The notes beneath the pieces were generated by a model that had not been told where the DNA came from, searched no databases, and saw only the letters and a program-made list of their open reading frames with translations. 64,000 nt of DNA. It comes from Anaerolinea sp. (GTDB lineage: Bacteria > Chloroflexota > Anaerolineae > Anaerolineales > Anaerolineaceae). Below, piece after piece: positions 32,620-35,752 of the stretch (position 1 is its first letter; every line of letters begins with the position of its first letter). Where the stretch lies: assembly GCA_013824865.1 (NCBI GenBank), contig PNON01000003.1, positions 1 through 64,000 on the forward strand, written 5' to 3'. The position numbers and the translations under genes were made by a program.

Positions 32620-33789
32620 ATGCCATCTGCTGAAATTATCACCATTGGCACAGAAATCTTGCTTGGAGAAATACAGGATACCAATACAGCTTTCATTGCC
32701 CGGCGGCTGAAAGATATCGGTATTGACCTGTTCCGTACTCATACAATTGGAGATAACGTCTTACGTATTAGTCAAACAATAAGAGAATCGCTCCAGAGGG
32801 CGGATATTATCATCACCACTGGCGGGTTGGGTCCTACTGTTGATGACCTCACCCGGGAAGCCATAGCTCAAGCAATAAATAAACCGCTAGAATTCCACCC
32901 AGAGCTTTGGGTAGAGATCTGTGGCTATTTTGAAAAGATCGGCCGGACAGCATCGGATAATAATCTCAGTCAGTCGTATTTCCCCTCAACTGCTGTGCCT
33001 ATCCACAATCCGGTAGGAACCGCACCCGGATTTTATGTGATAAGTGGTGAATCGATTATTTTTTGCCTGCCTGGTGTTCCTCGCGAGATGGAATACCTTC
33101 TCACCCTTAATGTCATTCCGTTCATCAAACAACATTATCATCATCACCAGGTGCTCATTACCCGCTTACTCCATGTAGCAGGAATGGGGGAATCGCAAGT
33201 GGACAGCTTAATTGGCGAGTTTGAACGGTTTTCCAACCCCACTGTAGGTCTTATGGCAAGACCCGGGCAAATTGACATTCGGATTGCAGCCAAAGCTGGG
33301 TCAACAAAAATAGCTGAAATAATGATTGCCGCGGTTGAACGAAAGATTCGAAAACTGCTAAAGGAATCCATCTATGGCGTGGATGGTGAGAGTATTCTCT
33401 TGGCAATAAAATACTTATGGCATTACAGCGCACCTATCGGCCTGGTGGAAGCCGGATTGGATGAAGGATTATCTCATCTACTAAACACTGAAGGAATATC
33501 CACCACGGAGTATCACCAAGAGGTGCCGCTAGGTCCTCAAGAACTAAAGGCTCAGATTCTGGAGAAACAGAAGGAATGGCAGCTTGATTTTATGGTGGGC
33601 TATTCCTTCAGTCAGTCTGAAGGGATCAGCAGCCTGGATTTTGTAATTTATGATCATGACCTGTATAATCTTCATAATAGAAAATTTGCGGGTCCATCGG
33701 AAAATGCCCCCCTTTGGGCAATAAACATGACACTTGACTTACTAAGAAGACACCTGCTTATTTCACAAAAAAAGAGGATAAATGATTAA
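32620..33789 (+). CDS. cinA: CinA-family protein with degenerate C-terminal amidase domain
   Basis: 389 residues. The N-terminal ~170 residues are the MoaB-like CinA domain (ITIGTEILLGEIQDTN; TTGGLGPTVDDLTREA), followed by a KH-like middle segment. In this family the N-terminal domain hydrolyses ADP-ribose and the C-terminal PncC domain deamidates NMN. Here the C-terminal ~125 residues still end like PncC (ALxLLRRHLL-type helix), but the catalytic AESCTGG motif is replaced by VEAGLDEG and the AVTGIAGP motif by GYSFSQSEG. Amidase activity therefore seems lost. It overlaps the next gene by 8 nt, placing it in NAD/nucleoside salvage company. Confidence 0.85.
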   Translation: MPSAEIITIGTEILLGEIQDTNTAFIARRLKDIGIDLFRTHTIGDNVLRISQTIRESLQRADIIITTGGLGPTVDDLTREAIAQAINKPLEFHPELWVEICGYFEKIGRTASDNNLSQSYFPSTAVPIHNPVGTAPGFYVISGESIIFCLPGVPREMEYLLTLNVIPFIKQHYHHHQVLITRLLHVAGMGESQVDSLIGEFERFSNPTVGLMARPGQIDIRIAAKAGSTKIAEIMIAAVERKIRKLLKESIYGVDGESILLAIKYLWHYSAPIGLVEAGLDEGLSHLLNTEGISTTEYHQEVPLGPQELKAQILEKQKEWQLDFMVGYSFSQSEGISSLDFVIYDHDLYNLHNRKFAGPSENAPLWAINMTLDLLRRHLLISQKKRIND

Positions 33790-35752
33790 TATTGATACCC
33801 TATTTATTAACGCCATCGTGCTCACCATGAATGAGGATTTTCAGCTCTTTAAGGATGGGGCAGTGGCGGTGCAGGAAGACCATATCGTCGCGGTGGGTGA
33901 CTCTGCTGACCTTCAGAAAGATTATCAGGCCCTGACCATAATCGATTGTGGTGGCAAGGTTTTAATGCCAGGGTTGGTTAACGCACATACACATGTCCCA
34001 ATGACTCTGTTGCGTGGCTTGGCTGACGATCTGCGGTTGGATGTATGGCTGATGGGTTACATGATGCCGGTGGAACGTGAATTCGTATCTCCCGACTTCG
34101 TACGCTTGGGTACATCCCTGGCCTGCGCTGAAATGATTCGCAGCGGAATTACCAGCTTTGCGGATATGTATTATTTTGAGGAAGACGTAGCAAAGGCAAC
34201 AGCGGCAGCAGGAATGCGGGCAATTTGCTCTCAGTCTGTTCTTAAGTTTCCCACCCCGGATGCGCATTCTTTCGAAGAATCATTGGATTACGCGCGTGAT
34301 TTCATAAGACGTTGGAAAGGACACCCATTGATCGTCCCGTCAGTTGCTCCGCATGCGCCTTATACCTGCACCACTGAAATATTAAAGGCAACTACCCAGC
34401 TTGCTGTTGAATTTGATGTACCATTGCATACACATCTGGCAGAAACCGCCATAGAAGTAGAAAACATGCGCAATGAGCATGGCATGCCGGTCATTCCTTA
34501 TGTAAAGAAGCAGGGGTTGTTCGAGGCGAAAGTTCTCGCTGCCCATTGTGTTCATATTGACAAAGGCGAAATGCGCACTATGCTGCATGCTGGCGCGGGA
34601 ATCGCTCATAATCCTACATCAAATCTTAAACTAGCTTCGGGTGTGGCTCCTGTTAAGCTGATGCTGGAAACCGGCTTGAATGTTGGCATTGGCACTGATG
34701 GGCCAGCTTCTAATAATGACCTGGATATGTTCGAAGAGATCCGGCTGGCGGCTTTACTTGCCAAAGGATTTAGCAATGATCCCACAGCTCTACCAGCTAA
34801 AACGATACTATCCATGGCTACGCGCATCGGCGCCAAAGCTTTGCATATAGGAGATCTTACTGGCTCTCTGGAACCCGGCAAGAAAGCGGATTTAATCCTG
34901 CTAGATCTATCCCCTGTTCACAATTCACCTAAATTCGATCGCGATCCCAATGGTGTTTATGCTCAGATCATCTATGCTTCAAAGGCGAACGATGTCACTG
35001 ATGTGATGATCAATGGCAAATTTGTGATGCGCGATAAACTATTGCTCACTCTGGATGAAAAATCTTTGCTCGACGGTGCGCAAGAGTATGCACGCAAGAT
35101 CGATAAATTCCTCTTCGTTCGTGAAAAGTCCGTTCTTTCAAAATTGATTGCCATCGGCGGAGCACTTGAAGAAGAGAGCTTCGAGGTCCAGCTCAAGATA
35201 AAAATCGCCAATCCAGAGGAGGTCTTAGCTTCTATCGAAAATCCACATATTGAGGTAATCCGCAAGCGCCATTACCATGAGTATGACACCTACTTTGTTT
35301 TTAAGGATGCTGAAGAGAATCGCTTGAGATACCGTGAAGATGATTTCATTAATGACCTTGGCGAAGTGGATTCTGTCCGCTATCGTTTGACGCTGATCGG
35401 ACCTTCCCGTGAACACAAGGTCACTTCCGATTCTTTGCTCTCGCGTAGCCGATACTTCGCTCCTGCTGGTCAGAGCCTCCGTTTCTATAAAGAGTACTTT
35501 ATGCCGGACTCGGAATTCGAGATTGAAAAAGATCGACTTAGATTCCTGGTGAAATTCCAGAATACTGAATTCTTTATTAATATCGATACCATATTAAAAC
35601 CTAAGCTCGGCACTTTCCTTGAGATAAAAAGCCGGACCTGGGGCCGCCAGGATGCACAGCAGAAATCTAGAAAAATTTCCCAGCTACTAGAATTACTGGT
35701 TCAACACCCTGGTGAAATTCTGGCGAAAGACTACCTGGACATGGTCGATTGA
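33782..35752 (+). CDS. MTA/SAH deaminase-like amidohydrolase fused to a CYTH domain
   Basis: 656 residues. Residues 1-440 form an amidohydrolase of the 5'-methylthioadenosine/S-adenosylhomocysteine deaminase type: NAHTHVPMTLLRG, HTHLAET, AHCVHID and GIGTDGPASNNDLDMFEE hold the metal ligands and catalytic residues. Residues ~460-656 look like a CYTH (adenylate cyclase IV/thiamine triphosphatase) domain: E468-V-Q470-L-K472 in place of ExExK, alternating Arg/Lys/Glu strands (KRHYHEYDTYF, LRYRED, FLEIKSR). CYTH enzymes act on triphosphates. The two parts are in one unbroken frame with no stop or frameshift seen. The substrate and whether the CYTH part is active are unknown. Confidence 0.82.
   Translation: MINIDTLFINAIVLTMNEDFQLFKDGAVAVQEDHIVAVGDSADLQKDYQALTIIDCGGKVLMPGLVNAHTHVPMTLLRGLADDLRLDVWLMGYMMPVEREFVSPDFVRLGTSLACAEMIRSGITSFADMYYFEEDVAKATAAAGMRAICSQSVLKFPTPDAHSFEESLDYARDFIRRWKGHPLIVPSVAPHAPYTCTTEILKATTQLAVEFDVPLHTHLAETAIEVENMRNEHGMPVIPYVKKQGLFEAKVLAAHCVHIDKGEMRTMLHAGAGIAHNPTSNLKLASGVAPVKLMLETGLNVGIGTDGPASNNDLDMFEEIRLAALLAKGFSNDPTALPAKTILSMATRIGAKALHIGDLTGSLEPGKKADLILLDLSPVHNSPKFDRDPNGVYAQIIYASKANDVTDVMINGKFVMRDKLLLTLDEKSLLDGAQEYARKIDKFLFVREKSVLSKLIAIGGALEEESFEVQLKIKIANPEEVLASIENPHIEVIRKRHYHEYDTYFVFKDAEENRLRYREDDFINDLGEVDSVRYRLTLIGPSREHKVTSDSLLSRSRYFAPAGQSLRFYKEYFMPDSEFEIEKDRLRFLVKFQNTEFFINIDTILKPKLGTFLEIKSRTWGRQDAQQKSRKISQLLELLVQHPGEILAKDYLDMVD

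Follow-up and report, generated by a model that had tools for sequence, protein, structure and literature searches.

A conserved fusion of an MTA/SAH-type nucleoside deaminase with a CYTH/triphosphate-tunnel domain of altered metal motifs in Anaerolineaceae and other Chloroflexota

The window analysed here is a stretch of 64,000 nucleotides from Anaerolinea sp. (assembly GCA_013824865.1, contig PNON01000003.1, positions 1 to 64,000). All the features described below are on its forward strand. An uninterrupted ORF at 33782..35752, with an ATG at 33782 and a stop codon at 35750-35752, codes for a 656-residue protein that joins an MTA/SAH-type nucleoside deaminase to a CYTH/triphosphate-tunnel (TTM) domain. 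A cinA-like gene (32620..33789; Pfam MoCF_biosynth and CinA_KH) overlaps the start of the fusion gene by 8 bp, and glgA follows it. No match to the CinA C-terminal deamidase domain was found by Pfam in the cinA-like product, though about 135 C-terminal residues remain.

The initial annotation had described a single 656-residue frame and had envisaged that a missed stop or a sequencing error might have merged two genes. The full-length frame is shared by 156 non-redundant copies in our alignment, and the fused frame is kept in hundreds of genomes; a missed stop or merged genes are therefore excluded. Only one genome (G058; L069, 7192-9400) has the deaminase and CYTH halves in different frames. 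The split coincides with an A-homopolymer, its most likely cause being a recent frameshift or an indel error, and the remaining short or split cases correspond to contig ends.

Residues 1-440 (33782..35101) make up an amidohydrolase of the MTA/SAH deaminase group, as originally proposed, according to both sequence and fold. They match Pfam Amidohydro_1 (PF01979) with an E value of 1.3e-73, and their nearest solved proteins are MTA/SAH deaminases, namely 4f0r (E 7e-97, residues 13-436) and 4dyk/4gbd (E about 3e-86), the latter two entries representing PA3170 of Pseudomonas aeruginosa. The predicted structure of the domain aligns with those of MTA deaminases with TM-scores of 0.95-0.97. The metal and catalytic set HxH, H, E, H, D is present across the 156 copies. 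The HxH motif (H69 and H71, 33986..33994) belongs to the positions conserved in at least 97% of them and aligns with the solved deaminases. H218 and E221 (34433..34444), H255 (34544..34546) and D306 (34697..34699) are conserved as well; from the amidohydrolase family, we take H218 to be a metal ligand, E221 and H255 to be catalytic and D306 to be a metal or catalytic residue. The best NCBIfam deaminase models score below their equivalog cut-offs (464 for PRK09045, with a curated cut-off of 540), and the family that they represent takes in SAH and 5'-deoxyadenosine deaminases. Mean pairwise identity across copies is 61% for the N-terminal half and 50% for the C-terminal half.

The two domains are joined by a helical connection spanning residues 426-459 (35057..35158), with AF2 helices at 426-449 and 451-459 and nearly invariant F443, R447, E448 and K454. 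Together with the full-length model (pLDDT 90, pTM 0.82), this connector suggests that the predicted domains have a defined arrangement.

Residues 464-656 (35171..35749) form the second domain, which had been called CYTH-like with the reservation that a profile search might reject that assignment. The window copy alone has no significant CYTH match in Pfam and only a weak NCBIfam cyaB match (E 2e-4, below cut-off), but 11 of 16 diverse homologues match Pfam CYTH PF01928 (best E 2e-7) and 10 of the 16 match cyaB (best E 2.7e-7). Furthermore, a profile-profile alignment (hhalign) to the canonical CYTHs that related bacteria encode gave an E value of 1.3e-6 and a probability of 91%. The AF2 model of the C-terminal half (pLDDT 86, pTM 0.83) was compared with the PDB using Foldseek; SaTTM came first (E 9e-8), and a Pyrococcus CYTH, CyaB of Yersinia, TTM1 and TTM3 of Arabidopsis and ThTPase were among the best matches. 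A direct sequence search of the PDB with the C-half profile returned no match, those matches coming from the fold search alone. Tunnel fold and profile homology thus place the domain in the CYTH/TTM superfamily (PF01928), as first suggested. AAA_21 was rejected for this half: its weak match (E 0.017) does not reach the gathering score, and the other members lack it. No real stand-alone gene for this type of C-domain was seen among the genomes examined. We regard the probability of an artefact, either through a sequencing error that merged two genes or through wrong assignment of the CYTH domain, as vanishingly small. The poor Pfam score of the window copy by itself and the out-of-frame halves of G058 would favour it; they are set against the 156 full-length copies and the hundreds of genomes with the fused frame, the homopolymer at the G058 split and the agreement of several methods on the CYTH domain.

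Most CYTH/TTM domains with a known role are triphosphatases or cyclases that depend on metals. They are classed by the ExExK, ExE, RxR and DxY motifs (PMC8233210). In SaTTM, E7 and E135 hold metal 1, while E5, E7 and E137 hold a calcium pair that includes metal 2; the triphosphate is bound by R56, R58, K69, K110 and R112, and D38-x-Y40 positions a water molecule (PMC8233210). We mapped the motifs of the fusion onto canonical CYTHs by sequence and profile alignment. The DxY correspondence was set by eye from alignments with SaTTM and CyaB, the automatic alignment being off by two columns.

Motif 1 of the fusion, E468-V-Q470-L-K472 (35183..35197), reads ExQxK in place of the hallmark ExExK in 156 of 156 copies; the change to E-V-Q-L-K noted initially was thus read correctly. 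Similarly, motif 3 on the last strand, E614-I-K616 (35621..35629), is ExK instead of the metal-binding ExE that provides M1 and M2 ligands in triphosphatases and ThTPases (PMC8233210), again in every copy. The other motifs are equally invariant in the 156 copies: D502-T-Y504 (35285..35293), corresponding to the water-positioning DxY; R516-Y-R518 (35327..35335), the phosphate-binding RxR; K583-D-R585-L-R587 (35528..35542), the canonical KxR with one extra Arg; and D602 (35585..35587), the canonical CYTH Asp that precedes the last strand. Invariance thus extends over E468, Q470, K472, D502, Y504, R516, R518, R567, E571, K583, R585, R587, D602, E614, K616 and D624, and 24 positions of the C-domain, mostly charged, are at least 99% conserved.

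In SaTTM numbering, the fusion keeps K9, DxY, RxR, KxR and E135, K69 is lost, and all 156 copies have E7 replaced by Gln and E137 by Lys. As judged from these alignments, both metal sites have had a carboxylate replaced, by Q470 and K616, identically in all copies. The signature of class IV adenylyl cyclases (CyaB), HFxxxxExExK with Ala at the second ExE position, is absent too: that position is Lys, motif 1 is ExQxK, and there is no conserved HF before it. With one carboxylate per metal site lost, the CYTH half would not count as a triphosphatase, ThTPase or class IV cyclase by published criteria (PMC8233210).

In the family, 89 of 101 genomes have the fused frame; the figures are 150 of 249 for the class and 62 of 301 for the phylum, where some carriers belong to families outside the class. 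A scan of named genomes yielded at least 538 confirmed relatives. Among the relatives listed, carriers include Anaerolinea thermolimosa, Leptolinea tardivitalis, Longilinea arvoryzae and Pelolinea submarina. The fusion of the window belongs with the Anaerolineaceae copies. In a phylogeny of the N-domain, three copies from Riflebacteria or unclassified metagenome-assembled genomes (L155, L164 and L169) form a 100/100 clade within the Anaerolineales copies, which looks like horizontal transfer, and we consider inter-phylum transfer probable. These three fusions are 81-89% identical to one another and about 65% identical to those of Anaerolineaceae. The fused copies cluster in the same tree; because the unfused, long-branch L191 falls at the edge of the cluster, a single origin of the fusion is not fully resolved by this phylogeny. 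In one genus of the same family (g18, e.g. G017, G049 and G064), the seven genomes searched all lack the fusion and keep several unfused amidohydrolase paralogues, which suggests a lineage-specific loss.

The coupling to cinA and the neighbouring glycogen genes had been taken initially as a hint of adenylate metabolism, and this link is not supported. The gene order cinA-fusion-glgA-glgC-malQ is seen only in Anaerolineaceae; part of the Anaerolineales still has cinA, by itself, near the fusion, and in more distant families the fusion is present without cinA or glycogen neighbours. A better context is provided by methylthioadenosine phosphorylase (MTAP) genes, which lie tail-to-tail with the fusion gene, at 2.5 kb or less, in 13 of 128 fused genomes representing eight families other than Anaerolineaceae (f3, f15, f16, f18, f20, f22, f28 and f31), usually with a gap of 14-260 bp. 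Position alone would give about 0.2 such adjacencies, taking 5 kb in 4 Mb per genome. This association points to MTA/adenosine salvage; nevertheless, the eight families may have kept one ancestral arrangement within one lineage, and the evidence is thus supportive rather than decisive. The neighbouring MTAPs carry the adenine-type Asp motif (VTDYD) and so probably use MTA directly, as judged from this motif. We rejected the idea that the fusion replaces MTAP or AhcY, both being present in nearly all genomes searched.

Elsewhere in the same genome (G000:C8, about 49-56 kb; L225, 1293-7975), genes for ECF/CbiQ-type transporters, an IF-2B/MtnA-like isomerase, an MTIP/MTAP-like phosphorylase and an unfused MTA/SAH-type deaminase are found together, likely a cluster for nucleoside uptake and methylthio-nucleoside salvage. 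The unfused deaminase is 38% identical to the fused one.

Taking the observed architecture, conservation, fold, residue substitutions and genomic association with MTAP as a starting point, we propose that the protein is an MTA-type deaminase tuned by a CYTH domain that binds a phosphate ligand independently of metals, a reading to which we give even chances as a whole. The zinc amidohydrolase would deaminate a 5'-modified adenosine to its inosine form, the substrate being most likely 5'-methylthioadenosine and possibly adenosine or 5'-deoxyadenosine. The CYTH tunnel would keep its phosphate-binding side and bind an anionic phosphate ligand, such as an NTP, PPPi/PPi or polyphosphate, the place of Mg2+ being taken by Lys616 and Gln470. 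It would not act as a two-metal triphosphatase, hydrolysis presumably having been lost, and its ligand state may tune the deaminase allosterically through the helical connector. The initial annotation had offered both coupled triphosphate hydrolysis and a role of the CYTH domain as a nucleotide sensor. A nucleotide or phosphate sensor fits better; hydrolysis is disfavoured, as each metal site is one carboxylate short throughout the 156 copies. A bolder version, which we find conceivable though somewhat short of probable, is that the fixed Lys and Gln replace two catalytic metals and define a new type of tunnel protein, either a phosphate receptor that gates the deaminase allosterically or a phosphotransfer enzyme that needs no metal and works in sequence with the deaminase.

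The main rival to the sensor reading is a bifunctional enzyme, in which the CYTH domain would still be a phosphohydrolase of altered specificity or metal use, e.g. a pyrophosphatase or one-metal enzyme, acting beside the MTA deaminase on a compound formed in SAM metabolism, as a product or a by-product, such as PPPi or PPi. The strict conservation of the 24 mostly charged C-domain positions resembles that of an active site and would fit a specific catalytic site just as well, and the M1 glutamate E614, E468 and most of the major basic residues remain. Moreover, Arabidopsis TTM1/2, which do without similar motifs, are reported to hydrolyse PPi (PMC8233210). However, an M1 ligand has become Gln and an M2 ligand Lys in every copy, and in SaTTM a mutant of the M1 glutamate E135 was used as the inactive control (PMC8233210). 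In addition, this genome (G000:C19) and most relatives encode a separate canonical CYTH, with ExExK in those aligned, so triphosphatase capacity lies elsewhere. On balance, we deem the bifunctional enzyme rather unlikely.

A structural or assembly role of the CYTH domain, in oligomerization or partner docking and with no small-molecule ligand, appears improbable. There is a parallel in the Mediator subunits Med18 and Med20, which share the CYTH fold; Foldseek also returned Mediator subunits, and other MTA deaminases function without any such domain. Yet the invariant positions are mainly charged residues of the tunnel type (E, K, R, D and Q) rather than hydrophobic patches. We attach equally little credence to the idea that the deaminase acts on SAH and the CYTH domain senses the status of the SAM cycle. 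In Methanocaldococcus, deamination of SAH feeds an inosylhomocysteine hydrolase route, and such an activity would agree with the SAH deaminases included in the family and with the AdoHcyase-family protein encoded in these genomes, AdoHcyase being nearly universal in the class. The nucleobase motif of AdoHcyase speaks against it: HVTAE in this genome, HxTxE in six others and HMTIQ in G137, with no inosylhomocysteine (SIH)-preferring HxExK among them. Since HxTxE characterizes the SAH-preferring type (PMC10978960), a route from SAH to SIH is not indicated.

Returning to the sensor reading, a fixed bacterial fusion whose metal site has undergone one and the same replacement in every copy offers a testable system for the change from a tunnel enzyme to a sensor, and a test case for the regulation of MTA/adenosine salvage by phosphate compounds. 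If the Lys/Gln-for-metal reading is true, it would directly link phosphate or energy status to methylthioadenosine salvage across Chloroflexota. In practice, cyaB-like or CYTH matches in this phylum should not be automatically annotated as adenylate cyclases or triphosphatases.

A text search of the literature, of incomplete coverage, returned no paper on an amidohydrolase-CYTH fusion and none combining Anaerolineae with CYTH. The surveyed fusion partners of CYTH domains are HD, exopolyphosphatase, nucleotidyl kinase, CHAD and phosphoribulokinase domains, with no amidohydrolase (PMC8233210). We are dealing with an ancient and apparently undescribed fusion of two known families, whose CYTH site is remodelled. 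Solved MTA/SAH deaminases (PRK09045-like; 4f0r/4f0s of Chromobacterium violaceum and 4gbd/4dyk of P. aeruginosa) match the N-domain over its full length at 38-40% identity and share all metal and catalytic residues, but they are single-domain proteins of about 450 residues that lack the appended 200-residue CYTH domain. With canonical CYTH/TTM proteins (PF01928; SaTTM 7ns9, YpCyaB and ThTPase), the fusion shares the eight-stranded tunnel fold, DxY, RxR, KxR, the Asp before the last strand, the first Glu of ExE and the motif-1 Lys. It differs from them by ExQxK and ExK in every copy, by the C-terminal position of the CYTH domain and by the absence of both the cyclase HF motif and the ThTPase W/YxRxR aromatic residue. 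The YgiF-type CYTH-CHAD proteins likewise have a CYTH domain in a bacterial two-domain protein, but there it is N-terminal, belongs to a known triphosphatase cluster and is combined with the polyphosphate-binding CHAD domain (PMC8233210). The closest precedent is found in plant TTM1 and TTM2 (SSN cluster 7; PDB 7z67), which match the fold and whose TTM domain has lost ExExK and ExE, keeps RxR and DxY and is fused to a nucleoside-kinase domain (PMC8233210), a partner from nucleoside metabolism as in the fusion. Nevertheless, that partner is a P-loop kinase (PRK) domain rather than an amidohydrolase, the substitutions are different, and these proteins occur only in plants and Amoebozoa.
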